64,000 nucleotides of DNA, taken from the NCBI GenBank assembly GCA_009760855.2, contig WPIO01000043.1:1736001-1800000 (forward strand), written 5' to 3'. A model generated the notes under the pieces. That model was not told where the DNA came from, ran no database searches, and worked only from the letters and a program-made list of their open reading frames with translations. Positions 3,838 to 48,597 of the stretch are shown here, one piece after another (position 1 is the stretch's first letter; every line of letters begins with the position of its first letter). Position numbers and translations under genes: made by a program. The DNA comes from Cristatella mucedo. Taxonomy: Eukaryota > Bryozoa > Phylactolaemata > Cristatellidae.

Positions 3838-6800
3838 CACTGCATGCCCACGTCATATGAAGGATAAGAAACACACAGTCCACGATGTTTGGTGGGTTGT
3901 GATGCTACTGTCAGTCATTCTGAGGCCAACCGGAAGCATACTACCTTCCCTCCCCCCCCCCCCGTTTACGACCCTTTTACGACCTGTATAGCCCCCCACG
4001 AAATCTTACCTTCTGCTGCCCATTTCATGTCGAAGGCCAGTTTTACCACGAATTCACTTGCTACAACTTTTTCAGTATTTGTCAAGAAAGGTATTAAAGT
4101 AGGTTTTCAATTTGTGTTTCGGCAGGATTATTTTGTCTTTCTTATATCTGAAATGATTAGGAACTCAAAAATCAAATGTTATGCCCATCTTCTCTCACAG
4201 AAAAATAGTTCACTTTTTAGCCCAGGCATGATGCTGTGATGAAGGTCTGGAAGCTAGCTAAACACACCGTGAACTTGCTATTGGTTGAGCAAAGCATGAT
4301 ATCAGAGCATAAATATTTACCGGGCAGGTGCCTGGGGAGCTTCATCGTCCAAGCTTAGGGGGAGATACAAGAGTCACCCCTCTTATGGCGATCGATGCTC
4401 TTGTTGGCAACAACAGGATGACTAGCAGAGATCATAGCAAATGTCACCTTGGTGACCACAGTGCTGTCAAGCTGTGCTGCTGCCCAATGAAAAACAACCG
4501 AGAGGCTTCTGTAGCATTAGTTTGAATTAGTGTCGCTTTTAGATGTGCTGCTACTGCTGGCATCATACTCGAGCTATCAGAGCACTATCCTAAAAGGAGG
4601 GGGCCCTGGATAAGATGCACGGATATTATTTCGTCAAGGCATGCTTCAATGGACCGTGTCCTTGTTACGTGTGAAGGACTCTGGTAGCTATCAAAAGCTG
4701 CCAAGGCTTTGAGTGCAATATAAAAAACTCTTCGGGGTAACACCCATTTAGTCTGTAATATTTCAGAATTACAGATGGAGATGCATACATGTACAGCCAT
4801 TTTTTTTAGCGCAATACAAATTAAAGCATTCGACTGTATGTGCTTTTCAAATGACTGTGTGGTGTGAAGCTAAGCAGCTAAGCCATCTTGGAGCAGCATG
4901 AACGTTTCGCGTACTACCATAATTATGGTCGTGCCTACAACGATGCCTCTTTTGTTTGCGTCCAACTAAGGTATTGATGGGTGTTCTAAAGCTTGGCTTC
5001 GTTACCATCTACTTATCAGACTCGCTAATAAGTGGCTTCACTACGGGAGTTGCCTGCCACATATTTACCAGCCAGATTCCATCTCTCTTGGGCATCAAGG
5101 TCGACAGATTCAATGGGCCACTAAAAGTTGCCTACGTAAGCTGCTTGCTTGCTCTGATGCTGAAACAGGCCACAGAAAACTGTTCGTGCATCTGCCACAA
5201 GCTCAGCCTTACAAACATCGTTTCAGACATATGCGAGTCTTTTCTCTCGCATCACCACCATCAAGGTGGTGGAACCCGTCATGGGCATCATTGCACTGGG
5301 CATACTCGTTGCTGTAAAAGAGGGCATCAACGAGAAATTTAAGAAGAAAATGAAAATGCCAATACCGATTGAGCTGATTCTGGTGAACTATTGCTCGTAG
5401 TCTTGATCTTGCATGTCTATATTCGAAGTCGGCCTGCTTAGTACTTCATTGTTGCGATGCTTGTGCTGATGCTTGTGCCAAGTGATGCTCGTTTTTGACA
5501 GTTTTAAATCTTTTTTCCTGTGGCATCTCTTAATTTATAATAATAATAATATACTTAATACAATTGATATAGCGTGACCAGAGAGCTCAATCTCTTTCTA
5601 GGCACTTTATATTTGCTGCAAAGGAAGCGCAATCGAATGGTTAGTGGTGGCATCTCAACGAAAGCAAGCATAATATGGTTAGGTATGGCATGCACCGGGT
5701 GGCAGCATGGACAGTGTCGGGAATGACGAGCCACACGGACCCACTAATGCCGTGATAAATAGATGCGCTTTTAGGATCTTTTTAAATGTATTCAAGTCAG
5801 GGAATGTCGTGACTCAAGTCGGAAGTGAGTTCCAGGCTTTGGGAAAATTTGTGCTAAGCCTACGGTCTCCAAAGGATTTGACGTTCGTACTAATTATAGG
5901 TAAAGGATTAGAGTCCGATAAGCAGGTGGTACGATGCTTAGCCTGTTGGGGGACTAGATCTGATAGGTAGGCTGGCACCAAAGAATGGACGGACCTAAAA
6001 GTGAGTGACACAATCTTGAAGTCGATGCGTTGCTTGACCGGGAGCTAGTGCAAGTCGGCGAGAAGTGGTGTGATGTGGAAACTGCGACTCTCACGACAGC
6101 CAAGCCTAGCTGCAAAGTTTATCACCAGCTGTGAACGTCTTACTGCACAGGTCTGCAGACCAGCAAGCACTTGTAAAAAGGAATCATCTACAATAAATTC
6201 GGCCACAGTAATTTCTTTAATGATGTCATCTGTGGCATTTGTATGAGAAGCCAACCTTTGCCGCGGGTTCTTAACAATGAGTATGTACTTGAAATCAAAA
6301 TATGTTTCCATGCAGAAATGTTTTATCATAGCTTGACGATGCTGTCTTATATGTTAGTCTTTGTTGTGCCTTTTCCAAATCTGCCCTATTGAATTCAAAT
6401 CTTGCCGTGCTACCATGGTAGTCAGCTGGGATCACTTTAGAAATGCCAAGAAGAAATGCAGGAATTATATAAGAGTCCAGTCAGGTCCTGTATCATTAAA
6501 ATGCACTTTTCAAATTGCCACAGACATTTATTACCCAATAGATGCAGCAGTAGTTGTATCAATGAGCAGCAAGCATCAGGAAGCAGCAAGAAGCTGCAGC
6601 TAGCACCAGCACCATGAGCTATCGGCAATCAAAATCAGTAGCAAACCGCATAAATTAGCTGTAGCAGCAAGCAGCAGGTCTTAGCAGCAGCCTTTATAAG
6701 CTTGTTAATGTCCTGCTGAGCGAAAGTGCACTTTTATTATTGTGTATGTTTGCCTGAAGTTGCTGCATCAGTGTCTAAGTCGCCATTTAATAAAGAGGCT

Positions 6801-9800
6801 GTCAAATCAGCTAGTATTCGTATATTTAAATAGTATGCTTCATCAAGCACTTATTCATGAAACTTCTGCATGTGCTATTGTGTACATGCCTTTATAATTG
6901 CTACTGTTTTAAGACTACTTAATGTAGATGCAGGCAGACGTATTGGGTGTTTGTCTTTTGAAATGCAGAAGGTATTATTTTGTCTAGTTTTGTCCTACAT
7001 TTTTCGGCAAGCTGGGTAGCCCTCTTCACCTGTGCTTTCGAGTCCACATCTTGATTGGTTTCACAAATCTAGACTTTTCATTGTTGCCTGCTGGAAACTG
7101 CATCCATGTAGATTTTGTGATGACACTGCTGTTCTGCATGGGCTGTACATATTTCTCAAAGTGTTGCCCATTTCTAGTAAACTGATACTGTGTAGTGCAT
7201 TGTCACGACCTTAGTTGGATGTGCACGAATAAGGTATTTTATTAGCTTGACATCTGCCTGGTGCACATGTTTGGCTAGTGTTGCTGGGGTTTAATAATAG
7301 TAATTATAATAAGAATAATAACAATAATAAACAATACTATTGTATTTATATAGAACCGTCAGAGAACTGTGTCTCTCTTAGGCACTTTCCAGATGCAGCA
7401 TATACAGCATTACCAAATAATTGGTGGTAACATTAGCATGCATCAGGCATATGAAGCAGGCACAGCACATAAAGTACAAATCACGAAGACCCACCAAATG
7501 CTGTAATAAACAGGTGTGTTTTAATTTTTAAGCTTCTTTAAATGTCCTCATGTCAGGGAACAATGCGATGTGGGTCGGTAGTGAGCTCCCGGCTTTGGGA
7601 GCGTAGGCACTAAGGAAGTGGTTCTCAACCTTCCTAATGCCGGGACCCTATATAGTTCCTCGTGTTGTGGCAACCCCAACCACAAAATCATTGTGTGAAA
7701 TAGTGGAAATGGCTGTTTTTCGATGGTCTCAGGCGGCCCCTCTGAAATGGTCGTTCGACCCCAAAGGTGTCGCGACCCACAGGTTGAGAACCACTGAACT
7801 ATAGGCATGGTCTCCAGTGGCTTTGAGGTTCGTACCAGGTATGGCTAAACGATTCGAGTCTGAACAGCTGGTTGTGCAATTCTTTGCATGGTGGGGAGTA
7901 GTTCTGATAGGTAGGCTGGAGCCAGAGAATGAAGAGACCTAAAGGTAATTACAAGACCTTGAAGTGTGTAATAAGACTGACATATAATTTACTAATATAT
8001 CTCGTTTGTATATCACCACAAGAGAACTTAATCTCCGGTCAGGCACTTCACTTGTGCCACGGGGTTCGAGACTACGACCTCTGTCATCAAATACATTCAC
8101 CATGACCTCGGTTGTTAAGGGGCGAAGAATAGTGTGGATCTACCTTGCATCATTATTTTCTTGTGAGGATGTCTCCTATCTCTTGTTTATACCTATACTC
8201 ACTGGCATAGTCATATTTCAAGATAATCTTTCAGTCGAATTTAGTGTTCTAAGAGATGGAAACCTTGAAGCAAGACTCATTTCCTACTTGAAACAAAATT
8301 TTACAATACACCAGGACCTTGTCTCAATGTCTTCCAGAAGGAATCTCAATTTCGTACATAACTGATAATTCCATGATTAATTCCTTCTCCGAAATTCAGA
8401 CTTAAGTAGAGTCTCTCTGGTTCTTTTGCTTGATCTTTCGGCAGCATTTTATATGATTTGATCATTAAGTCCTTCTCCAGTGCGTCCCACCTTACCTAGG
8501 CATCACTGGCACCACATGCACTGCAATTGTGTAGGTCACATCTTAGTGAAAAACTTGAGAGTTTTAAAGTCAACGGCCAAAAATCATCCAAGTTTTAAGC
8601 ATCAAGTATGGTGTAGGTGTGGGCTCTGGGCTCGGGCCGCTCTTTTTTACAGTTTATACTCTCCCTTTTGCCCAATGTGATCGCCAAGCACAATATACTC
8701 TTCCACTTCTATACAGACGATACTCAGTTGTCCTTTGCTTTGATCTCTATCAGCCGAAGAGCCCGTCAAACTCGCTTGCTGCATGCTTTGCTGACATCTG
8801 CACTCGCAACACAGCAAACTTTCTCAAGTTTAATGACGATATAACAACGTACTAGTCAATGCCACACCTATTGTGATGCGAAATAGAAAAGCCTACGATG
8901 CTCCGGCACAGAGAAGCTTGGCTGCAGAGTCTTGCACCTTCTGTAAGCACCTGAAGTGAGTTATCTCCTCCTCTCATTTCACAAAGCCATAAAGACTAAC
9001 TGGATGTTATGCAGGAGAGTTTTTTATCGCACTGAAATATAGCTTAATATATAAAATATAGCCTAAAATAGCCTAAGTGGCTCTGCAGTAGTCAACAGAC
9101 TTTATCTTATGTTAGAAAGACAAAGTGAGAAGCATGGCTGGGTTATGATGGCAGTCAAAGAAGTAAGTGGCATGGAAGCAGCAGGCCAGAAAGACTGGAA
9201 AGGATGTATCACAGTCGGCTGCAGGATTATAATCCTGCACCCAGTGTGGAACATCCTATAATTATAGATGTCGTTGCATAAAAATGGCACCCGACTCTTC
9301 TCATGATAGTGGTCACCACATTGACATGCTTACTTAGCAGAATGTGTAAAGTGCCTAGAGCGAGCTCTAGTTCTCTTAGGGTGCTATACAAATATCTTAT
9401 TATTATTTTTATTATTAATAATTATCCTTGGAAAACTAGTAGGCTTTGCCAGTCAAGATAGATACTGTTTCTTTTCTCTGTTTGATGGGTTCAGCCCATA
9501 ACAGCTTCTGAACAGTCGTTGACATGTCTATCGAAAACGATTACCGGTCAGCTGATTCTGATAAAACATCTTCATTTATCTAGTAGCTTGTGTGCCCTAG
9601 GGGCCACCACTTGCTAGCTACATAGGATTTCCTAGTGTGGGACTGAGTTTTTGAATTTAGTAATGAAATGCAAGCAAATAACGCAGGCTAAGACCCAGGG
9701 ACTGCTCTTAAGCTTATTGCCAGTTTTTGCCCCTAGGTCTTAGCCTAAAAAAAATACTAGCTGATTAAACAGCCTCCTTTTGTATAGCGACAGAAGAGCC

Positions 9801-15800: not shown

Positions 15801-18800
15801 ATGAGCAATATTGACACGTTGAGTAATCACGGTTTGGTTTGGAGGTACCGTGCGCAGAGGCTGCTTAACGTTCTCCCGTATCATTATTTAGCTGCTCGTC
15901 CTCTGGACGGGTCGAAACCGTTGAGTTTTAAACCACTGCCTTCTGTGTCCCTTTTCCCCCCAGTACTCTGTAATATGTAATGTATCTCCGTCTGTAACTC
16001 CACAAAGTCAAAAAGACCATGTGGGTGTTACGAAGGAGAGTTTTGTATTTGCGCACTCACAGTCTAAGCGGCTTTCGGTACGCATTCGGTAGCCAACAGA
16101 CTTTGTCTCACACAACAAAGAGAAAGTGGGAAGCATAGCAGAGTCAGGAGAGCAGTTGAGGTAGTGAGTAGCATGGAAATAGCAGCTCAGGACCGCTGAA
16201 AAGGATGAGCCATAGTCGGCAGTAGAAGAGTAGTTGTTGTTGCATGAGAAGATTGACTTCAAGGTTTTGTCGATCACTTTTACATCACTTCATTCTTTGG
16301 CTCCAGCCTATCTCTCAGATATACTCCCCCATCAGGCAAGCATCGCATCACCCGCTTTTCGGAATCCAAGTCTACAAATACCTTGTACAAACCTCAAATC
16401 CTTTGGAGACCGTGCATTTAGTTAGTATGCTCCCAAAGCCTAGAACTCCCTCCCGACCTGTGTCAGAACATCCCCTGACCTGACCACATTTAAAAAAGAA
16501 GTTAAACACCTATTTAGGACAGCATTTACTGGGTCTCTGTGATTCGTCCTTGATGTGCTTATGCGTGCTGACACTGTGCATGCTGCCACTAACCACATTT
16601 GCATGCTGACCCTGTGCATGTCACCCCTAACCATGTTATTCATTTTGTTTGTTTATCAAGCATGATATTAATCCCCATTCAATTGCATTTCCTTTTGCAG
16701 CAAATGTAAAGCGCCTAGAAAGAGATTGAGTTCTCTGATGGCGCTTTATCAAGTGCACTATTATTATTATTATTAATTGTGGAAGCGAGTTCCACAGTCT
16801 AGGACCTCCGGAGCTAAAGCTTCTGTCGCCAACGATCTTTAAGCAAAGGAATGGAACAACTAATTTATTGTCCACACAGGACCTGAGGGCGCAAACAGGC
16901 TGAAACTGGTGCAGCAGTTCAGCTAGGTACGAAGGAGCCAAGCCGTGGCTGGCCTTGTGGGTCAGCATAAGAACTTTGCTCTGTATCCGTTGCTCAACCG
17001 GCATCCATCCTAACTCTTTTAGCAAAGGAGACACGTGCTCAAACCTCTGGGACTTGAAGACTAGCCTTGCAGCCATATTCATAGTCTGCTGCAGTGGCCT
17101 AATAGCTTTCTTTGGCAGCCCAGCCAAAAGGGAATTACAATAATCAAGCCGAGACAGAACTAAGGAGCTAGTTGAATTTTTTACAAGCAACTGTTGGAGA
17201 CAAAGGTGTGAATGTGCACTGCATTTATTCTAGTATTAGTAATGACACTTATTGTAATAAGTCGTTAGTATAACACCCTACGAGAGCCAGATCTCTATCC
17301 ATATGCTCTACAACTCGATGTGAGAGAAGCACTAACTAAGAGTTTATGGCAAGCAAAGTACAAGAGGATACTGAAGGCCTCTGGTTTGTAGATTTGTCCG
17401 AGTCAACTTCCTGTTTTAGCTTAAGCTGATCATGGGTTAGAAAGTGTAATGCTAATAACATTAGCCGATGCGTTGTAGGAGCTGATTGCATACGGAATGA
17501 CAAATGCAGTCTCCTCTTTCTTCGGATGCTTTCCATCGTGCTCGTCCCTGTCACGCTCGGCGATACAGGAAAACCAGGGTGGAAAGACGCAGGTTGGTAC
17601 AATGGTCAGATCCTGCTTGATTTGCAGCTCCTCTGGATTTGATCTTAGTTGGCTCCAGGTGTACAACAGATTACATTGTGCCTGTTTGTACTCACGCTGT
17701 CACTCACCCAATCAGCTGCCGGTTCTTCAGGTCGCCAGCATCATTTCGGCTATCCTAATTCTCGTGGTGCTTCTGTGGATGGGTCCACTACTGGAGGCCT
17801 TGCCCGGGGTGAGTTTTGGTTTCTTACCATCGCTCGAGCATTTCTGAGTGGACTTGTATGCCTCGTGGTGCTTGCAGTTTGAATTTTTCCGGCTTTCAGA
17901 CCGTGGAAGTTGTTGTCTCAATTACATGATATAGACCTGGCAAACACAGCCGATCTTTTAAGTGTAGTCTTAACTATATAAGTAATAATAATAATAATAA
18001 TAATGCACTTGATAAAGCACCCTCAGAGAACTCAATCTCTTTCTAGGCGCTTTACATTTACTATAGTGGGAAACATGATTAAATAGTGAGTAATGTCATG
18101 CTTGATAAACAACATGAATAACATGGTTAGGGGTGACATGCACAGGGTCAGCATGCAAATGTGGTTAGTGGCAGCATGCACAGTGTCAGCACTCATAAGC
18201 ACATGAAGGACGAATCACAGGGAGTCACTAAATACTGTCCTAAATAGGTGAGTTTTTAAGTTTTTTTTTAATGTGGTCAAGTCAAAGGACGTTCTGACGC
18301 AAGTCGGGAGTGAGTTCCAGGCTTTGGGAGCATACAAACTAAATGCACGGTCTCCAAAGGATTTAAGGTATACCCTAAGCAATGCTGACTCTGTGGAGTG
18401 ATTAGCTCTAAAGCCAGACTGGAACTTACTAGCAAGGTGTGAGCATTCGAAATATGAGTTTAGCTGGTCTGCCACGACCCGTTCCAGTGTCTTTGATAGG
18501 AATGGTAGAAGGGAGACTGGGCAGTAGTTGCTCAAGTTCTCTTGGTCTAGTGTTGCTTTCTTGAGAAGTGTCCTGACTACAGCTTTTTTGAAAGGTGCTG
18601 GGACATTACCTGAGGCTAATGACATATTAATTATGTTAGTTATGCATGGCAACAGCAGATCAATGTAACGTAAGCGAAGGACAGTGGGAATAGGGTCCAA
18701 AGCACTTGTTGTCTTATTTGATTGGGATATGAACTTCAGGACGAGATCACTAGTGACCTGCTTAAATGTAGATATTGAGGTGCAGCCTGGAATCGGGGAA

Positions 18801-27100: not shown

Positions 27101-29587
27101 TGTAAAGTGAAATGCAATTGAATGGTAAGTAAAATCTTGCTTGAAAAACAAACGAAATGAATAATATGGTTAGGGGTGACATGCACAGGGTCAGCATGCA
27201 AATGTGGTTAGTGGCAGCATGCACAGTGTCAGCACGCATAAGCACATCAAGGACAAATCACAGGGACCCACTAAATGCCGTCCTAAATAGGTGTGTTTTT
27301 AGGTTTTTTTAAATGTGGTCAGGTCAAGGGATGTTCTGACGCAGGTCGGAGGGAGTTCCAGGCTTTGGGAGCATATGAACTAAATGCACGGTCTCCAAAG
27401 GATTTAAGATTTGTATGAGGTATTTCTAGACTGTTGGATTCCGAAAAGCAGGTGGTACAATGCTTGGCCTGATGGGGTAGTATATCTGACAGATAGGCTG
27501 GAGCCATAGGGTGAAGGGACCTAAAAGTGAGCGACAAAACCTTGAAGTCAATCCGTTGCTTGACTGGTAGCCAGTGCAGGTCGGCGAGAAGTGGAGTAAT
27601 GTGGCAACTGCGACGCTCACGACAGACAAGCCTAGCTGCAGAGTTTTGCACCAGCTGCAATCGCCTGATCGCACATGCTGGTAGGCCAGTAAGCAGTGAG
27701 TTGCAGAAATCGAGACGGGATGTTACAAATGCATGGACCAACTTGGACGTAGTATCTTTATCTAAACAAGCCCGAATTTTAGCATCACTCATCAATAGAA
27801 AAGATCGACTTCTCACACGCAAAGTCAAAATGAGGTAAGAGCAATCTAAGATAAAAGTGGACTTGGTAACTGGGGGACGAGAGGCTAATGTCTCGATTAA
27901 CAGCTTATTGTCGGATGAACCTGAAGCAAGCGATTTGTAAGACTGCTTCGAGGGAACTGCAAGCGGTTTGAAATTGAGGGAGGGCTAGGCGACAATGGTG
28001 ACGCAACCACCGGTTTCGATTGATCTAAGGGTATTGAAAAAGGAGAAGTCTATAGTCGGTTGGGTAAGAGATTTTAGCTAAATGTTGAACTAGGTAAACA
28101 GGTCTATTACATTCTTAGTAACTATCTCACATATTATTAATGGCTTGTTGCAGATTGAACGAAAAGTCTGTAGAAGAGCATTAAGATGGCTCCCCATAGT
28201 TATAGAGTGCGTGATTACCACTAAGTTAGAGTAACTGGATGTAGTGTTGATCTCTACTATTTAAAGCGAGTCTGTATTTCAGTCAAGTGCCAAGATGATA
28301 GCATTGTGTTTTGTGACAATACTTCCAAGAGTGACGTATAATAGATGAGTAAATTTTGTGGCAATACTTCCAAGAGTGACGTGTAATAGATGAGTAAATT
28401 TATGTGCAATATTGTATTTCTACTTTTACACAGCAAAGCCAGTCCATAGGAAGTGAGATCTATAGGAAGTGAGGAAGTGATACTACTAACAGTATTAAGA
28501 CATGTGCGTTAGTATCTGAGAGAACATATTGCTCTAAATACATTCACTCACCCCACGTCTGTCCAAGGGCAGTTAACTGTTTCCGAAATTTCATGGTCAC
28601 CAAAGCCCCTCCCTGCACGATCGCCTCGTTCAGGGGCAGTTCGAGGCAGCCCACGATTAATTAATTCCGTCATCCTCATCCTTTTATATTAGCAAGGTAG
28701 GTTTAGATCATATGTGTTGAATCTTATGTTTGCTCTAGCGCCTGACCACTGGCATGGAGTGCATTTGCTCCCTGTGGCTTGTTTGCAGGGGGCGACCTGC
28801 TGCCGGTCGGCCAAAGATGCCGCTACAATCGTGAACAACGAATTGTCGCTTATGGTCGATCATACTCACGTGGTTGTCGGCGCATTGCCGGTGCCTCCCG
28901 AGCAGAGTCCTGACTGGCCGGCATGCAGCGTCCAGTTCATCGTCATCGACTGCAGCACGATGAGCTACGTCGACTTGGCCGGCATCAACACGCTGAGGGC
29001 TGTGAGTGCTGCTGCGCGTTGCAGCAGTCTGGGAAATGCACTCTTGTGCTCGCGATGCTCTGTCAATCCAAGATGCAATTCACATAAATCCTTAGCTCGA
29101 CGATTCCTGCCGTCACGGCAGCATCTAACATGGAGACATTGAATTCGAAACGACTAGCCCAGCTGTTATTCTCAGAGTATGCTTCATCTATGTATATCGT
29201 TCTTTAAATGCCCATGCGTGCAGCAATTGTGTATTTTATCGTCACCAGAAAAAAGAAAGAAAGAAAAAGCCATATAGGGGGCTTCATGAGCAGCAGGAGG
29301 CTATTGTGGGTTTCCTGTTATCAACTGCAGACCGAAGCTGAAAGCCGAGTTTCGACTCAATTAAGTGCATCGATCCTCACATTGGTCGGATTATCAACCC
29401 GATCTAATGGCTAGTGTGGCCGGCCATGGGCTGTCTTACGTGCAGATGCTGCTCATATGCTCAGCAAAATGCTTAAAAACAGCATAAGAAACGACGGACA
29501 GAAGTCCGGACTAGTGGCTGGCTACTGAGGAGAGCTTAGTAGTGGTTTCTGGGATAACGAAGTTACACTGGACAACTCCCACCATTG

Positions 29588-35700: not shown

Positions 35701-36203
35701 ATGCCGGCTTGTTCTTGCGTGTGAGACTGTGTGCGTACTAAAAGTCGCTTAGGCATTTTGACATTCAAGCAGAGACCGTCTAGTTCACCGACTGTGCTGT
35801 TTTTGTCGCAGTGTTGAGCTGCTGGCTTAGAACTTCTTATGCAATACAATACTGCAATGCCTTTCCAAACACTGAGATACATTGTATAATCTGTTTTCAG
35901 TACCAGGAGGACATTATAGCAGGGTCTACTGCCCACATCGCTCCTTTTGCTGATCAGTTCGATGACGTATACATAGAAACAACGATAGCCGAGTTGCCGA
36001 TCGACGACCCGCAGGTTGCAGGCACCGACAGTGGCGAGGTGATGCCACTGCACGAGGAGTCACTGCACGAGGAGTCACTGCACGAGGAGTCACTGCACGA
36101 GGAGTCACTGCACGACCAACTGTCCCAGCCGGCTGACTCGATGCCGATTGCCGACGTTAACTTTGATTTACACTCTGAGCCCCAGGCTGGTGGTCCCACG
36201 TGA
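776..36203 (+). CDS. SLC26 (SulP) family anion transporter, 15 exons, 5' end outside window
   Basis: Membrane anion exchanger or channel of the SLC26/SulP family (sulfate, chloride, bicarbonate, oxalate or iodide, depending on the member). Exons: 776-1095, 4971-5135, 5227-5382, 11237-11319, 13562-13709, 17479-17592, 17731-17808, 22720-22815, 22937-23043, 24372-24441, 25343-25597, 28789-29001, 34115-34169, 34507-34637, 35901-36203. Every junction has AG/GT borders, and the phases chain without conflict into 763 codons plus TGA. Family landmarks in order are FAVASMM, GLMQVLMGVLKLGF, LISGFTTGVACHIF, PIPIEL, GNIPAGF, SLAKTFAKRNNYEVDANQ, SRSAIQENQGGKTQ, VIIDVDIGLLIAVAFGLLTV and GRIPHTDLYKD. A STAS domain then spans exons 11-14 (FIVIDCSTMSYVDLAGINTL). 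Family members are usually about 700-1000 residues, so roughly 100-170 N-terminal residues are missing, including the sulfate-transporter signature. I cannot assign a subfamily. The substrate is therefore unknown. Confidence 0.93.
2235..2900 (-). mobile_element. Decayed LINE-1 3' part
   Basis: Scattered matches to LINE-1 in order: AAGTTTCATGCTTT.AAGCAT, GCCAGTGCAGATTGAGGAG, AAAGTAGGCAGACTCGACTG, AGATGCTGG. It is old and interrupted. Confidence 0.55.
3085..3200 (+). mobile_element. Decayed SINE-1 copy
   Basis: GACCGAGGTCGTAGGGCTCA, then GTGAAGCACCTGCATAGAGA. The tail merges into the (TA)n tract. Confidence 0.55.
3203..3345. repeat. (TA)n with interspersed TATTGGA
   Basis: AT dinucleotide tract with recurrent TTATTGGATA interruptions and a self-complementary CCAATAATA/TATTATTGG pair. 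It is likely to form hairpins. Confidence 0.9.
3346..3790 (+). mobile_element. LINE-1 3' end
   Basis: Plus strand. It carries the C-terminal frame (SLEIPRTNLKSFGDRAFSS; AWNSLPTCIRTSPDLTTFKR), 3' UTR, stem-loop (AAAGCGCCTAGAAAGAGATT..TCTCTGAGGGCGCTTT) and (TTA)n. It is flanked on both sides by (TA)n tracts. Confidence 0.85.
3783..3833. repeat. (TA)n microsatellite
   Basis: Uninterrupted AT dinucleotides directly after a LINE-1 (TTA)n tail. Such tracts often seed from retroelement tails. Confidence 0.95.
4971..5135 (+). CDS. SLC26 exon 2
   Basis: This exon has 55 codons and phase 0 at both ends. It reads VLMGVLKLGFVTIYLSDSL, then ISGFTTGVACHIFTSQIPSL and GIKVDRFNGPLKVAY. This is the strongest SLC26 block in the window. 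The RGFTTAAAVHVF-like motif and the following G-V/I-K are hallmarks of the family. The donor is TAC|GTAAGC. Confidence 0.93.
5227..5382 (+). CDS. SLC26 exon 3
   Basis: This exon has 52 codons and phase 0 at both ends. The acceptor is GTTTCAG. It begins TYASLFSRITTIKVVEPV, continues with MGIIALGILVAVKEGINE and ends FKKKMKMPIPIELIL. The VAVKE...F..K.P.PIPIEL pattern is diagnostic for SLC26. An open frame reading through from exon 2 into intron 2 is spurious, because the true exon is in a different frame. Confidence 0.92.
5540..6140 (-). mobile_element. LINE-1 3' end
   Basis: (TAA)n at 5540, 3' UTR, then the C-terminal frame on the minus strand (FRSVHSLVPAYLSDLVPQQA; NVKSFGDRRLSTNFPKAWN). It lies just downstream of SLC26 exon 3 in intron 3. 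Confidence 0.8.
6788..6826 (+). mobile_element. SINE-2 3' end scrap
   Basis: AATAAAGAGGCTGTCAAATC then AGCTAGTATT matches the last 35 bp of SINE-2. Confidence 0.5.
7300..7975 (-). mobile_element. LINE-1 3' end hosting SPIN
   Basis: (TAA)n and 3' UTR from 7300 to 7615, then SPIN, then continuation GGCATGGTCTCCAGTGGCTTTG and GATAGGTAGGCTGGAGCC to about 7975. Confidence 0.75.
7616..7796. mobile_element. SPIN-type hAT element, 181 bp non-autonomous, nested in LINE-1
   Basis: The ends are near-perfect inverted repeats (AGTGGTTCTCAACCTTC and GGTTGAGAACCACTG). The interior carries the SPIN-like strings CTAATGCCGGGACCCT, CGATGGTCTCAGGCGGCCCC and GGTCGTTCGACCCC. It interrupts LINE-1 3' sequence. The flanks CACTAAGG and AACTATAG are both derivable from the uninterrupted LINE-1 string AACTAAAG, so they form an 8-bp target duplication as hAT elements make. 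It has no coding capacity. Confidence 0.85.
8003..8090 (-). mobile_element. SINE-1 copy, truncated
   Basis: Minus strand. GTATATCACCACAAGAGAAC, then CTTGTGCCACGGGGTTCGAG. Confidence 0.7.
8370..8860 (+). mobile_element. LINE RT fragment
   Basis: Plus strand with frame slips. It shows GLGPLFFTVYTLP, then sequence equivalent to the FYxDDT catalytic motif and NFLKFNDD. It is non-functional. Confidence 0.65.
8978..9240 (-). mobile_element. LINE-2 3' tail fragment
   Basis: It aligns with 15998-16225 and 48240-48385 (AAGTGAGAAGCATGGC; GGAAAGGATGTATCACAGTC). Confidence 0.6.
9770..9935 (-). mobile_element. SINE-2 copy
   Basis: Minus strand. CTTTTGTATAGCGACAGAAG, then GCAGGAATCGAACCCACGAC and CTAGTGTGCCATCACGGC. 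Confidence 0.85.
10197..10442 (+). repeat. 21-bp minisatellite, about 12 units
   Basis: Units such as CTGTGTCTGCCCCACGTCTCT, with variants, repeated head to tail. One unit near the 3' end is 2 bp short. The 21-bp period keeps several frames open, so long ORFs here are artefacts. Confidence 0.9.
11105..11205 (-). mobile_element. SINE-1 copy abutting SLC26 exon 4
   Basis: Minus strand. It has the stem-loop tail and GTGCCTTGGGGCTCATTCCA. It ends about 30 bp before the exon 4 acceptor and so lies close to the branch-point zone. Confidence 0.75.
11237..11319 (+). CDS. SLC26 exon 4 (small, split-glycine exit)
   Basis: This exon has 27 codons plus GG. It reads VIAATMVSYFFNLDKNYK then VKVVGNIPA, and corresponds to the family's V.IGT..SY......Y...VVG.IP.G segment. 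The acceptor is a polypyrimidine tract ending TTACAG and the donor is GG|GTAAGC. It sits directly beside a SINE-1 copy (11105-11205). It is easy to miss by ORF length but closes the frame between exons 3 and 5. Confidence 0.9.
11455..11530 (-). mobile_element. SINE-2 fragment
   Basis: Minus strand. GTGACAAAAGAGCTTTAGGG and the short palindromic body only. Confidence 0.5.
11808..11965 (-). mobile_element. SINE-2 copy
   Basis: Minus strand. AACAGCCTCTTTTGTATAGT, CACCCTGTGCAGGATTCCCA, TTCGGGACCGAG. Confidence 0.78.
12061..12930 (-). mobile_element. LINE-1 3' end, 870 bp
   Basis: (TAA)n at 12061. Minus-strand frame 12361-12903 carries VKSAYFQLLNIAKIRACLD, SLVYREVRSCHITPLLADLH and LKSFGDRTFGSYAPKAWNSL. 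Confidence 0.85.
13562..13709 (+). CDS. SLC26 exon 5
   Basis: The first base completes the Gly codon from exon 4, giving IPAGFAVPEVPEFRTFG across the join. The exon then reads RLVSSAFALAVVIFAVSVS and LAKTFAKRNNYEVDANQ. The SLAK.FA...Y.VD.NQ block is a classic family motif. The donor is CAA|GTAAGA. An alternative acceptor 14 bases downstream (TTCCAG) would break the phase with exon 4. Confidence 0.92.
13710..15060. other. SLC26 intron 5, left part
   Basis: Mostly unique sequence with short C or G homopolymer runs (13751, 14747, 14890). A GGGTTCGATCT string on the minus strand near 14655 hints at an old tRNA-like SINE but has no supporting A-box. Confidence 0.5.
15065..15156. repeat. (TG)n microsatellite with TTTG interruptions
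   Basis: GTGTGTTTGTGTGTGTG blocks in SLC26 intron 5. Confidence 0.95.
15990..17190 (-). mobile_element. LINE-2 copy, split by a LINE-1 insertion
   Basis: Minus strand. The part 16774-17190 carries the RT C-terminal frame (SRLDYCNSLLAGLPKKAIR; ARLVFKSQRFEHVSPLLKEL; LAPSYLAELLHQFQPVCALR; RSFSSGGPRLWNSLP). The part 15990-16235 carries its 3' tail (shared with 48240-48390 and 8978-9240). The copy at 48.4 kb shows the two halves are contiguous when undisturbed. Confidence 0.8.
16236..16773 (+). mobile_element. LINE-1 3' end inserted in LINE-2
   Basis: Plus strand. It starts ATTGACTTCAAGG, covers the C-terminal frame (LKSFGDRAFS), the 3' UTR and the stem-loop, and ends in (TTA)n at 16758-16773. 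Confidence 0.85.
17479..17592 (+). CDS. SLC26 exon 6
   Basis: This exon has 38 codons and phase 0 at both ends. It begins ELIAYGMTNAVSSFFGCFP and ends SLSRSAIQENQGGKTQ. It carries the conserved QE(L) continuation of exon 5 and the SLSRSAVQ...GGKTQ motif of the transport domain. The acceptor is CGTTGTAG and the donor GTTGGT is slightly unusual. Confidence 0.93.
17731..17808 (+). CDS. SLC26 exon 7 (membrane segment)
   Basis: This exon has 26 codons and phase 0 at both ends. It reads VASIISAILILVVLLWMG then PLLEALPG. It is one hydrophobic helix followed by the family's GPLFE.LP turn. The intron to exon 6 is only 138 bp, the second shortest here. The donor is GGG|GTGAGT. Confidence 0.92.
17984..20270 (-). 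mobile_element. LINE-1 copy with endonuclease, RT part and 3' end; internal deletion
   Basis: Minus-strand non-LTR retrotransposon of the jockey superfamily (CR1/L2-like). From 5' to 3' it shows endonuclease (ICNKRLV at about 19.95 kb; VAVVYRPPGT and FLVMDDFNIHFDK at 19.54-19.77 kb; LVAHVHGPTHIKGHTLDQ), then early RT (DPIPTVLRLRYIDLLLPCI; LSNYCPVSLLPFLSKTLE; FQSGFRANHSTESALLRV). A sudden join to the C-terminal end (SFGDRAFSLYAPKAWNSLP) follows, and a (TAA)n tail lies at 17984. The catalytic RT core is missing. It lies in SLC26 intron 7. Confidence 0.85.
20848..20938 (-). mobile_element. Minimal LINE-1 3' tail
   Basis: (TAA)n plus the stem-loop TTGATAAAGCGCCCTCAGAG...CTCTTTCTAGGCGCTTTAC only. 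It is a severe 5' truncation. Confidence 0.8.
21040..21212 (+). mobile_element. SINE-2 (tRNA-derived), full copy
   Basis: CCGTGATGGCACACTAGGTA head, B-box GTAGGTTCGATTCCTGCG. The unique body has a small palindrome (CACCACTGCAAGTGGTGGTG) and the end reads CTATACAAAAAGAGGCTG. Its 3' end does not match LINE-1. Confidence 0.85.
21213..22719. other. SLC26 intron 7, right part
   Basis: The part 21385-21960 has a very worn LINE-like order (TTCCACCCACCGACCTTCGC, then CTCCCAGAGCCTGGAACTC) on the plus strand. From 21960 to 22719 I see nothing. Confidence 0.5.
22720..22815 (+). CDS. SLC26 exon 8
   Basis: This exon has 32 codons, phase 0. It reads CILAAIIIVGLKGTFMQF then NQLKPLWIVAKHDF. It matches the C.LAAII.VALKGM..Q......W....D segment of SLC26. 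The acceptor is GTATTGTAG and the donor is TTC|GTGAGC. Confidence 0.92.
22937..23043 (+). CDS. SLC26 exon 9
   Basis: This exon has 35 codons plus two bases of a split Thr. It reads AIWMVTFTAVVIIDVDIGLL then IAVAFGLLTVVFRSQ. It is the last membrane segments of the transport domain, including the conserved D-(I/L)-D-(I/L)-G. It follows exon 8 after a 121-bp intron. Confidence 0.92.
23625..24065 (+). mobile_element. Decayed LINE-1 3' end
   Basis: Plus strand. It has ACCTCAAATCTCTTGGAGACC, CCCAAAGCCCGGAACTC, the 3' UTR with the TGCTGACCCTGTGCATGTCA string, then a worn stem-loop. Confidence 0.7.
24099..24148. repeat. (CA)n microsatellite
   Basis: A run of about 25 CA dinucleotides after a LINE-1 3' end. 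Confidence 0.95.
24372..24441 (+). CDS. SLC26 exon 10 (linker to STAS)
   Basis: One base completes the split Thr, followed by 23 codons: AYTCLLGRIPHTDLYKDKSV then YNT. It corresponds to the family's LG.IP.T.(I/L)Y.D segment just before STAS. The acceptor is TTCATTGCAG and the donor is ACG|GTACGA. Confidence 0.9.
24935..25260 (-). mobile_element. Decayed LINE-1 fragment just before exon 11
   Basis: Minus strand. Matches include CTCAAGTTATGGGATGTC, GAGTGAGTTCTATGCTTTAAG and GGACAGGTCGGCGAG. Confidence 0.6.
25343..25597 (+). CDS. SLC26 exon 11 (STAS, first part)
   Basis: This exon has 85 codons, phase 0. It begins VEELQGVRVFRMDSPLHYIN and continues VEHFRHKLYKLTGINPRQL, matching the STAS start (G(I/V)...R...PL.F.N...F...). 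After this a Gln/Arg/Ala-rich segment (NKVQRELDIELATAAAL, then TAAQRQRQMP) begins the variable intervening sequence found in animal SLC26 STAS domains. The donor is ATG|GTAAGA. Confidence 0.92.
25965..26140 (-). repeat. Unnamed interspersed repeat, copy A
   Basis: Its reverse complement aligns with 40915-41060, sharing AATGCATACCCCAGCCTACG and the following ACAGTGC..., the ATTGTTATCTGCCAGTA / ATTGTGTACTGCCGGTA pair, and CAATCGG..C.CA.C.TTCCT. No terminal repeats or coding are visible. Confidence 0.6.
26740..26880 (+). mobile_element. LINE-1 3' UTR fragment
   Basis: Plus strand. TTTATGCGTGCTGACACTG and CACCTCTAACCGTGCTATT match the LINE-1 3' UTR. Confidence 0.6.
26890..28260 (-). mobile_element. 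Older LINE-1 endonuclease fragment, split by a younger LINE-1
   Basis: The part 27793-28260 carries early endonuclease (FSFFNTLRSIETGG; LILTLRVRSRSFLLMSD), and 26890-27017 carries its direct continuation (NVHFDNLSDAISSEFLAL; SDPTYIKGHTLNHV). Comparison with the copy near 19.55 kb shows the break falls inside the GDFN-like metal-site motif. Confidence 0.8.
27018..27792 (-). mobile_element. 5'-truncated LINE-1 inserted in an older LINE-1
   Basis: (TAA)n tail at 27018, 3' stem-loop, 3' UTR and C-terminal frame (AKIRACLDKDTTSKLVHAF; RLDFCNSLLTGLPACAIRRL; DILPHQAKHCTTCFSESN; SFGDRAFSSYAPKAWNSL). It is a good-quality copy with a nearly unbroken frame to the end of the ORF. Confidence 0.85.
28313..28406 (+). 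repeat. Two-unit tandem repeat, about 46 bp
   Basis: GACAATACTTCCAAGAGTGA...AGATGAGTAAATTT and GGCAATACTTCCAAGAGTGA...AGATGAGTAAATTT lie directly in tandem with only a few differences. Confidence 0.85.
28789..29001 (+). CDS. SLC26 exon 12 (STAS, variable loop and core)
   Basis: This exon has 71 codons, phase 0. The first half continues the variable STAS loop. The second half is the STAS core: VQFIVIDCSTMSYVDLAG then INTLRA, equivalent to (I/V)ILD.S.(M/V).(F/Y)(V/I)D..G...L. The acceptor is TTTGCAG and the donor is GCT|GTGAGT. Confidence 0.93.
29591..29735. repeat. (CT)n microsatellite
   Basis: About 145 bp of CT with a few CGCT/CTTT interruptions, in SLC26 intron 12. Long RE- or SL-repeat ORFs on either strand are artefacts. 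Confidence 0.95.
30455..30612 (+). mobile_element. SINE-1 (tRNA-derived), full copy
   Basis: A-box TGGTCTAGCGG and B-box GGGCTCAAGCCCC, then the LINE-1-like stem-loop tail AAGCGCCTGAATAGAGACCA...TTCTCTTGGGGCGCTATAT. A second, tail-only copy lies at 30408-30450 immediately before it. Confidence 0.85.
31980..32399 (+). mobile_element. SINE-2 copy, itself split by a truncated LINE-1
   Basis: Head CCGTGGTAGCTCACTGGGTC, B-box GGTTCGAATCC at about 32039, body to 32098, then 32336-32399 with the family's end (TTCTTCTGTTGCTATA, AAAGAGGCTGTTAAATCAGC). It is flanked by TCATGTAG duplications. Confidence 0.85.
32099..32335 (-). mobile_element. 5'-truncated LINE-1 3' end inside SINE-2
   Basis: A (TAA)n tail and the LINE-1 3' stem-loop, then 3' UTR up to GTGAAGGACGAATC. 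CCATAA lies at both borders (32093-32098 and 32336-32341), the probable target duplication. Confidence 0.85.
34115..34169 (+). CDS. SLC26 exon 13 (STAS helix, 55 nt)
   Basis: This exon has 18 codons plus one base: MYDEYKKVGIGMLFANCK. It matches the family's Y...(K/E).G(I/V)...(L/F)A.C strand. The Met here is internal, not a start. The acceptor is TTTTGCAG and the donor is G|GTAAAG. It is too short to be found by ORF length. Confidence 0.9.
34507..34637 (+). CDS. SLC26 exon 14 (end of STAS)
   Basis: Two bases complete the split Ala, then 43 codons. These include GVRQMFARSELYATVPKTSV, YVTIHDAVIAALQQLNDDK and QLDK. It corresponds to (V)...L.RS......P....F.(T/S)(V/I)HDAV at the end of the STAS domain. 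The acceptor is CGTTGTAG and the donor is AAG|GTATAT. Confidence 0.92.
34848..34938 (-). mobile_element. Minimal LINE-1 3' tail
   Basis: (TAA)n, then the worn stem-loop and TTTGCTGCAAAG. It lies just after SLC26 exon 14. Confidence 0.7.
35162..35232 (-). mobile_element. Minimal LINE-1 3' tail
   Basis: AATAATAATGCACTTGATAA, then the stem-loop and nothing more. Confidence 0.7.
35358..35490 (-). mobile_element. SINE-1 copy
   Basis: Minus strand. TATATAATTCATTTATATAG tail, GCCTCGGGGCTCGAGCCC, GACCTTGGTCGGGGCGAGCA. Confidence 0.82.
35901..36203 (+). CDS. SLC26 terminal exon: acidic C-terminal tail and stop
   Basis: Phase 0 entry after TTTTCAG, 100 codons, then TGA at 36201-36203. The tail is acidic and disordered-looking (QFDDVYIETTIAELPIDD). 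It carries four exact copies of LHEES (15-bp units, 36048-36107) and a degenerate fifth. The last residues are QAGGPT, which is not an obvious PDZ-binding end. I saw no clear polyadenylation signal in the next few hundred bases. Confidence 0.85.
   Translation, partial: YQEDIIAGSTAHIAPFADQFDDVYIETTIAELPIDDPQVAGTDSGEVMPLHEESLHEESLHEESLHEESLHDQLSQPADSMPIADVNFDLHSEPQAGGPT
36048..36107 (+). repeat. Coding 15-bp tandem repeat, four exact units (LHEES)
   Basis: The unit CTGCACGAGGAGTCA is repeated four times without a mismatch, then a fifth unit diverges to CTGCACGACCAACTG. The period is a multiple of three, so the frame of the SLC26 tail is kept. Identity at every third position points to recent expansion. 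Confidence 0.95.
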
Positions 36204-44394: not shown

Positions 44395-45500
44395 GTATTT
44401 GTCAAACTTTAGGAATCTGTTGCAGTAACTGATAAACTGAATGCATGCCTTGCCGGCATTTGACCCTGGATGATGGAAAATGTCTTAAAACTAATGATGA
44501 AAAAAATGAACTATTGCTCGTAAGACACTATAACCGTGTAGCTGCATTAGAAAAGCTTTGCTATTCTAATAGGTGATGGTGTTGCGAGACCATCACCACG
44601 TGCTCAAAATTTAGGTGTCGTTTTTGAAAACTGCCTAAATTTTAAAGCTTCATTCAGAAGACTACTTGTACAGCTAGCCATTACGTCCGATCTCGAATTA
44701 AGATTGGGAGCCGTCTTCCACGGCGGCTTTAACTAGCGCCTTAGTTCTGTCTCGGCTTGATTGTAATTTCCTTTTGGCTGGACTTCCAAGAAAAGCAAAT
44801 AGGCCACTGCAGATGGCTATGAATATGGATTCAACTCTAGTTGATCAATCCTAGAGATTCGACCTCGTGTCTCCTTTGCTATAAGAGCTAAGATGGCTGG
44901 CGGCTGATCGACGGATATAGGAGCAAAGTTCTTATGCTGACCCACAAGGCCCACCACGGCTTGGCTCCTCCATACCTAGCCGAACCGCTGCATCATTCTC
45001 CGCCTCCTCCTGCCCCAGGTCCTGTATGGACAATAACGCAGCACTTCAATTACCCCGCTTAAAGACGTTTGACGACAGAAGCTTTTGCTCTGTAGGTCCT
45101 AGACCAGTGGTTCCCAACCTTTCTAATGCCGCGACCCTTTAATACAGTTCTCACTTTGTGGCGACCCCAACCATAAAATTATTACGTGCGAAATTTGAAA
45201 TACGTGTTTTCCGATGGTCTTAGGTGATCTCCGTGAAAGGGTCGTTCGACCCCCAAAGGGGTCTCAACTTACCGTTGATAACCACTGTCACAGACTGTAG
45301 AACGAGCTTCCACGATTCTTTCGCAACGACAACTGCTCTCCTGCTGCCGACCGTGGAAAAATTTTCCAGCCATCCTGAGCTGCTAAGTCCATGCTACTCA
45401 ATACCTCAACTGCTCTCTTGAATCTGTTATGCTTCCCACTTTCTCTTTGCCGTGTTAGATGAAGACTGTTGGCTACTGAATGCTGTGAGTGAGCTTTACC
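44395..45500 (+). mobile_element. LINE-2 copy, split by SPIN
   Basis: Plus strand, decayed. It shows RT-distal sequence equivalent to SRLDCNFLLAGLPRKANRPL, then the GGTCCTAGAC-TGTAGAAC site broken by SPIN (45105-45287). The LINE-2 3' tail (AGCCATCCTGAGCTGCTA; CCCACTTTCTCTTTGCCGTG) continues to about 45500. Confidence 0.75.
45105..45287. mobile_element. SPIN-type hAT element, 183 bp non-autonomous, nested in LINE-2
   Basis: It starts CAGTGGTTCCCAACCTTTC and ends GTTGATAACCACTG. The interior has CTAATGCCGCGACCCTTTA, CCATAAAATTATTACGTG, TTTTCCGATGGTCTTAGG and GGGTCGTTCGACCCCCAAAG, closer to the SPIN sequence I know than the copy at 7616. Flanks are TCCTAGAC and TCACAGAC. The undisturbed LINE-2 copies read GTCCTAGACTGTGGAAC here, which confirms an 8-bp target duplication. 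Confidence 0.87.
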
Positions 45501-45674
45501 AAAGTCTCATGCAAAATACCCACATAGTCTTTGCGGAATTACAGATGGAGATTCATTACATTAATTATCATTCCCAGTGGTTGAATACAAATAGAGAGCA
45601 GCAACGGACCGAGGACGGACCTTTATTAGTTTACAGTCATGATCGGTCTGGCGGGTGTGACCTGACCCTCACTC

Positions 45675-47700: not shown

Positions 47701-48234
47701 CTGTTTTAAGCTTTCGGGTTTAGACTCAAAGGAAGTCTTTGATATCGACTAGATCTGCATCAGACTCCGATTATTTTGAAATGTTCAAGTGTCAGCTTAA
47801 CACCGCGCGTTTTTTGAAGTTTTTTGTAAATTGAAAGGAATCACCCCGACTCTTTACACGGTCAGAATGTACAGGAACATGTTTTCAAAAGTACTCCGAA
47901 GTGTCATGTTCGCTGCATCAGTGAGGGTATTGAGGCTGTCGTATAAGTGAACCGTGGATTTTTTGGGAGCGGACAATTAGCAGGCGGAATTTAAGAAGCT
48001 GCCCAGTAACTTCGTGAGGCAGATAAAGTGGCTTGCATTCAAGTCGGCATGAAGCCGGTTCGGCTGAAGTAGCCCCTTCGAATCTGAATCGGACCTTGAT
48101 ATCTCTTACCGGCCGATGTTTCGCAACATGCTGAGGCAAGGCAGGTGAGCTACTACCGAAACGTGGCTAATCAGCTCATTAGGCTTCGGGGTCGTAGGTT
48201 TTATAGCCGAGCTGTTGATAGGACAAACACATTC

Positions 48235-48597
48235 TTTAGCCGAAATACTTCATCTCAATCAGCGAAGAGAAAATAAGAGGCATAGCAGAGTCAGGAAAGT
48301 AGTCGAGGTAGTAAGTAACGTGGAGGTAGCAGCTCAGGATGGCTGGAAAGGATGTGCCGTAGTCGGCATCAGGAGAGTAGCTGTCTTTGCTTAAGAGTTG
48401 TGGAAGTGAGTTCCACAGTCTAGGACTTGCAGAGCTAAAGCTTCCATCGCTGTCTTATAGTAAAGTAAGGGACAAGCTAATTTATTATGCATACACGACC
48501 TGAGGGCAGGAGGAGGCTTAAACTGGTGCAGCAGTTCAGTTATGTATGAAGTAGCCAAGCCACGGTAGGCCTCGTTGATCAGTGTCAGAACATGCTG
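48235..48597 (-). mobile_element. LINE-2 3' end
   Basis: Minus strand. It has the C-terminal frame (matching AGTTCCACAGTCTAGGAC and TGGTGCAGCAGTTCAG) and 3' tail. It serves as the undisturbed reference for the split copies at 16 kb and 45 kb. Confidence 0.75.

Follow-up and report, generated by a model that had tools for sequence, protein, structure and literature searches.

Is a short inverted-repeat element at positions 45105–45287 of an invertebrate contig a member of SPIN, and if so, how did it reach this lineage? Textbooks cite SPIN as an example of DNA transposons that have crossed between animal phyla, by routes that are still debated. The stretch of DNA analysed here (the window; 64,000 bp, C376:1736001-1800000) belongs to a genome of 572,011,866 bases in 688 contigs, and the element is considered below with respect to its insertion site, its relatives in this genome, its resemblance to SPIN and its probable origin.

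The element and its insertion site

The element, designated copy 2, is complete, lies on the forward strand and is 183 bp in length. The sequence runs from CAGTGG, starting at 45105, to CCACTG, finishing at 45287 (opening CAGTGGTTCCCAAC, closing GTTGATAACCACTG), and its 5' terminal inverted repeat (45105–45118, forward strand) is 86% complementary to the 3' terminal inverted repeat (45274–45287, reverse strand) with which it pairs. The left copy of the target site duplication, TCCTAGAC (45097–45104), is identical to the empty-site sequence described below; the right copy, TCACAGAC (45288–45295), has two changed letters, such that six of eight letters still agree. At 183 bp, copy 2 is too small to accommodate any transposase and has no gene of its own.

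Copy 2 interrupts a LINE fragment, of a class that we take to be LINE-2; Pfam assigned no family to the four LINE fragments submitted. The left part of this fragment (44728–45104, forward strand) aligns with 17176-16775 on the reverse strand, and its last part also aligns with 48591-48230 on the same strand. The right part (45296–45561, forward strand) aligns with 48591-48230 and with 16243-15975, both on the reverse strand. When the flanks of copy 2 were joined, one duplication taken out and the resulting sequence aligned to the LINE copies of the window, two uninterrupted copies were identified as empty sites: the first (16775–17176, reverse strand) aligns at 81% over 404 columns and is unbroken across the junction, and the second (48230–48591, reverse strand) aligns at 74% over 366 columns. 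The target TCCTAGAC is present only once in each of these copies, indicating that the 8-bp duplication of copy 2 is real. The first-pass annotation had described a SPIN-type hAT transposon at this position, and had compared its target duplication with intact LINE-2 copies in the window: the inverted repeats, the unbroken alignments and the single targets bear out the element and its insertion.

The window contains a second copy of the same element (copy 1; 7616–7796, forward strand, 181 bp), which is 78% identical to copy 2 (E value 1e-33) and lies inside another LINE copy. Copy 1 likewise interrupts a LINE for which there is an empty site; its duplication (CACTAAGG / AACTATAG) agrees at five of eight letters.

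Consensus, ends and target sites of the family

All of the 40 candidates that were scored (the best 40 of 2,101 from a first look at the genome) match copy 2, the other 39 at 84-89% identity. A consensus was built from 41 aligned copies, consisting of 39 fetched genomic copies and both copies from the window. This consensus is 187 bp in length, and over the first 16 letters of its inverted ends 15 agree. Copy 2 aligns with it from end to end with 163 matches, 20 mismatches and 4 gaps.

The flanks of the family show the same type of duplication as those of copy 2. Left and right flanks agree at six or more of eight letters in 29 of the 41 copies (8/8 in 8 copies, 7/8 in 15 and 6/8 in 6), compared to 100 of 1,640 pairs in a control of mispaired flanks; agreement is below 6/8 in the remaining 12 copies and in 9 of 20 copies of a second, spaced sample (described below). 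In 35 of the 41 copies the left flank has the dinucleotide TA at its positions 4-5, whereas the frequency of TA in the flanks is 6%. The 8-bp target site duplication and short terminal inverted repeats are those of the hAT superfamily, and a duplication centred on TA (nnnTAnnn) is that of the Buster group. This is also the target duplication given for TcBuster in a paper that puts SPIN in the Buster family (PMC3499496). TcBuster is described in the same paper as an active transposon system (PMC3499496), while the 183-bp element is too short to encode a transposase. Being short (187 bp in the consensus), non-coding and high in copy number, the family consists of MITEs.

Copy number and divergence

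A genome-wide count and an estimate of divergence, both proposed as checks in the first-pass annotation, are now available and describe a large family. With no more than one mismatch allowed, an 18-letter word from the 5' end occurs 1,026 times in the genome, a word of the same length from the interior 838 times and one from the 3' end 981 times, with no occurrences of the reversed control in each case. These counts are lower bounds, as decayed copies slip past 18-letter words.

Median divergence from the consensus among the 41 aligned copies is 6.4%, a value that is biased low because the 39 fetched copies were picked for their likeness to copy 2. A fairer sample was drawn from 20 sites spaced along approximately 100 of the 1,026 word matches (an exact 18-letter word was still needed for inclusion): 15 of these 20 sites hold full-length copies, whose median divergence from the consensus is 8.4%, and the flanks agree at six or more of eight letters in 11 of the 20. 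For copy 2 itself, 20 of the 183 sites compared depart from the consensus (approximately 11%). Divergences of about 8% for the sampled full-length copies and about 11% for copy 2 suggest that the MITE burst was not recent and that the family is probably inactive.

Comparison with SPIN

The SPIN reference used here was a provisional text (110 letters of the 5' end and 89 letters of the 3' end), which we assume to be faithful. Against this provisional text, the MITE consensus agrees at 80 of 81 aligned letters at the 5' end and at 85 of 85 at the 3' end, while the agreement of copy 2 with it is lower, at 74 of 81 letters and 76 of 89, respectively. Such a difference is expected if copy 2 has decayed from the family that the provisional text describes. 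The MITE consensus has no alignment to letters 82-110 of the provisional 5' text, and the 187-bp form differs from that text in having its own 21-letter interior (consensus positions 82-102). Searches for SPIN in plasmids, phages, and viral and prokaryote contigs gave no match, apart from one search with 15 viral-contig matches that rest on a short AT-rich word.

Judged by this agreement, the family to which the provisional text belongs is present in this genome. The family name SPIN, which is taken from the provisional reference, is very probably right, and the SPIN reading of the first-pass annotation is supported by the comparison of the 41-copy consensus with the provisional ends, by the TA-centred 8-bp duplication and by a longer copy containing interior sequence of the provisional reference (see below). 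That annotation would have been refuted by an identity confined to the terminal repeats; identity to the provisional text instead extends over 166 end letters and into the interior of the longer form. Copy 2 would be an ordinary decayed MITE of a known family in a host that is possibly new, and not a new type of element.

SPIN reportedly occurs in the pond snail Lymnaea, and in print it is named from squamate reptiles. Non-autonomous SPIN elements are described from tetrapods and from Rhodnius prolixus (PMC11614815, citing Gilbert 2010). The family in this genome resembles these elements in its nearly identical ends (by the provisional text), its hAT inverted repeats and 8-bp duplication, and its combination of a short, non-coding, high-copy form with a longer form that carries interior sequence of the provisional SPIN text; it differs from them in that its host appears to be a lophotrochozoan. 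A hAT element with identity to SPIN and approximately 1,000 copies is described from Biomphalaria glabrata (PMC5440852). Compared by description with that element, the present family is alike in having a lophotrochozoan host and a similar copy number, but its host is not a pulmonate and has a different mitochondrial gene order.

A longer form of the element

A 608-bp copy on contig C44 (L131) was picked out because its 5' and 3' words are approximately 500 bases apart. Its flanks, read by eye, are CTCCAGAC / CTCTAGAC. The provisional 5' SPIN text, set down before the sequence of L131 was seen, aligns with this copy over 109 letters at 94.5%, and 28 of these letters are interior sequence absent from the MITE. 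A longer provisional SPIN text of 311 letters, which entered the comparison only after the sequence of L131 had been seen, matches at 173 of 192 letters over its positions 1-192 and at 78 of 83 over positions 229-311; the 36 letters between them (193-228) have no alignment anywhere in L131. Of the 111 letters that form the interior of this longer text, 97 match (E value 2e-36, five loci searched), and this interior has no match in the window.

A genome search with the L131 interior gave at least 47 matches (from the best 40 of 104 candidates), 27 of which span its first 103-111 letters. On contig C133, two such matches occur in the right order over a span of 2.9 kb, separated by 2.5 kb; this pair could be a full-length copy, two neighbouring copies or a copy containing an insertion. 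The genome possibly still holds longer, and perhaps full-length, SPIN copies among its approximately 1,000 or more MITEs. With the long form and the candidate full-length copy in hand, a tree of SPIN copies could test which lineages were donors and which were recipients.

hAT transposases in the genome

A profile search of the genome with PF05699 gave at least 138 matches among 150 scored of 766 candidates. At least 63 of these, with scores of 69 bits or more, appear to form a single, very young hAT family. Members of this family (L063-L082) are found on many contigs: compared with L068, 19 loci show 99.0-99.9% identity over approximately 2.0-2.2 kb; open frames reach 635-642 aa, and the family may still be active. 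As a partner for SPIN it was rejected, since SPIN ends are absent from all 20 fetched loci, each taken with 1.5 kb to either side. The dimerisation domain of the young family was also found at C44:3588049-3588285 within a 1,947-aa open frame, which could be a fusion.

From the weaker PF05699 matches, 20 loci of approximately 6 kb were taken, holding 21 of the 75 weaker matches; no SPIN ends were found at these loci, and at least four of them are fragments of the young family. Five of the 20 (L086, L092, L095, L096 and L100) belong to an older hAT family of approximately 2.3 kb, also without SPIN ends and rejected as a partner. Its compared copies are 82-89% alike, and in both L092 and L100 the 3' end reads ...CCCACCCCTG (...TTTGCCCACCCCTG). 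Its protein presumably resembles Charlie8/GTF2IRD2.

The search for a hAT transposase that had been recommended by the first-pass annotation met two other hAT families and found no SPIN-ended transposase at the 40 hAT loci examined (20 of which reached only 1.5 kb to either side). The result is similar to that for Biomphalaria, for which the published account states that no intact DNA-transposon transposase was found (PMC5440852).

Origin of the family

Taken as a whole, the evidence makes it very likely that the element is a decayed SPIN-family hAT MITE, that it was moved in trans by a Buster-type transposase, and that its family multiplied in this genome and was horizontally acquired. By this mechanism, a Buster-type hAT transposase supplied in trans (an enzyme suggested by the anatomy of the element) would recognise the inverted ends, excise the element and join it into a TA-centred 8-bp site; the ends, the TA, the duplication and the empty site are all observed. 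Repeated movement of this kind would have multiplied the family to the 1,000 or more copies that are counted. Entry into this invertebrate lineage would most likely have been by horizontal transfer rather than by inheritance from a common ancestor, since the non-coding ends are nearly the same, letter by letter, as those of the provisional text for vertebrate SPIN. A large burst in one more lophotrochozoan lineage would extend the SPIN transfer network by a host. A further reading, less likely than not, is that the host is a ribbon worm (Nemertea), a phylum with no SPIN record in the papers searched, and that SPIN colonised it from outside; this soft-bodied predator would then be a node of the network lying apart from the routes through blood-feeders and snails.

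Three other explanations were considered. The best of them, although improbable, is that the element belongs to a different, Charlie-like hAT family that has only terminal motifs in common with SPIN: hAT ends starting with CAGTGGTTCTCAA occur in several families, and the SPIN comparison uses a provisional reference text. Against this, agreement with the provisional text spans the whole of the 81- and 85-letter ends as well as the interior of the longer copy, and the fetched loci of the two other hAT families in this genome all lack SPIN ends.

Vertical inheritance from an animal ancestor, with no horizontal transfer at any point, is less probable again. It would accommodate the SPIN-type elements that are in print from more than one invertebrate (PMC5440852, PMC11614815). 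The distance of the sampled copies from the family consensus, however, is only about 8%. Moreover, unselected non-coding sequence would not retain identity of approximately 99%, as seen here to the provisional ends, from the time of the animal ancestor.

Contamination or a chimeric contig, an idea that draws on SPIN being best known from vertebrates (squamates are named in print), hardly merits belief given that the matches listed for the 1,026 5' words are spread over dozens of contigs, that both window copies sit in host LINEs with empty sites alongside, and that the 1.5-kb flanks of six of seven other copies match repeats of the window (L020 by only two short matches; the exception is L017, with none). 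Chimerism at the junctions, which had been named beforehand as grounds for abandoning the SPIN reading, is excluded by the empty sites, the host repeats in the flanks and the spread of copies. Horizontal acquisition of a SPIN-family MITE is the preferred reading.

Mitochondrial contig and other features

The mitochondrial contig (C688) is 21,008 bases in length with a 44% GC content and reads under the invertebrate code. It contains a perfect tandem duplication of 2,119 bases and a third, inverted copy of approximately 1.8 kb. The cox1 gene was identified by family search, the other protein genes by eye from translations, and the tRNAs are ARAGORN predictions (for tRNA P, one overlapping prediction competes). 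One block has the order nad1-P-nad6-cob-S2-T-nad4L-nad4-H-nad5, in which P and T are encoded on the opposite strand. Both cox3-K-A-N and I-nad3 are on the main strand, with atp6 and cox1 between N and I; nad2 and cox2 are reversed, cox2 is single, and cox1 shares its strand with nad5 and cob.

The mitochondrion of Lineus viridis has the same nad1-to-nad5 block, except for a Y after nad1, and has only P and T reversed (PMC2728741). Its protein-gene order is described as common to the brachiopod Terebratulina and to certain gastropods, Conus among them (PMC2728741). The present contig differs from the plain ribbon-worm layout in the placement of atp6 and cox1 between N and I and in the reversal of nad2 and cox2. 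Nemertea would accordingly be a tentative best guess for the host, favoured by the strand of a single tRNA and other slight signs. It is also unlike Chaetoderma nitidulum, which is described as having a duplicated cox2 and an aculiferan order, and it fits neither the three-block Aculifera order nor the pulmonate order as published. Further cox1 matches were found off the mitochondrial contig (C166:4375626-4376390, and on C83, C549 and C299); these are probably nuclear copies.

Within the window, an Rfam search at gathering thresholds and ARAGORN found nothing. Exons of an SLC26 (sulfate/anion transporter) gene are present at 4923-5339 and 28693-29139, with a Sulfate_transp match at 1.1e-13 and a STAS match just under the cut-off. 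A perfect 15-bp tandem repeat of 4.7 copies (36046-36115) lies in an open frame and reads as EESLH repeats.
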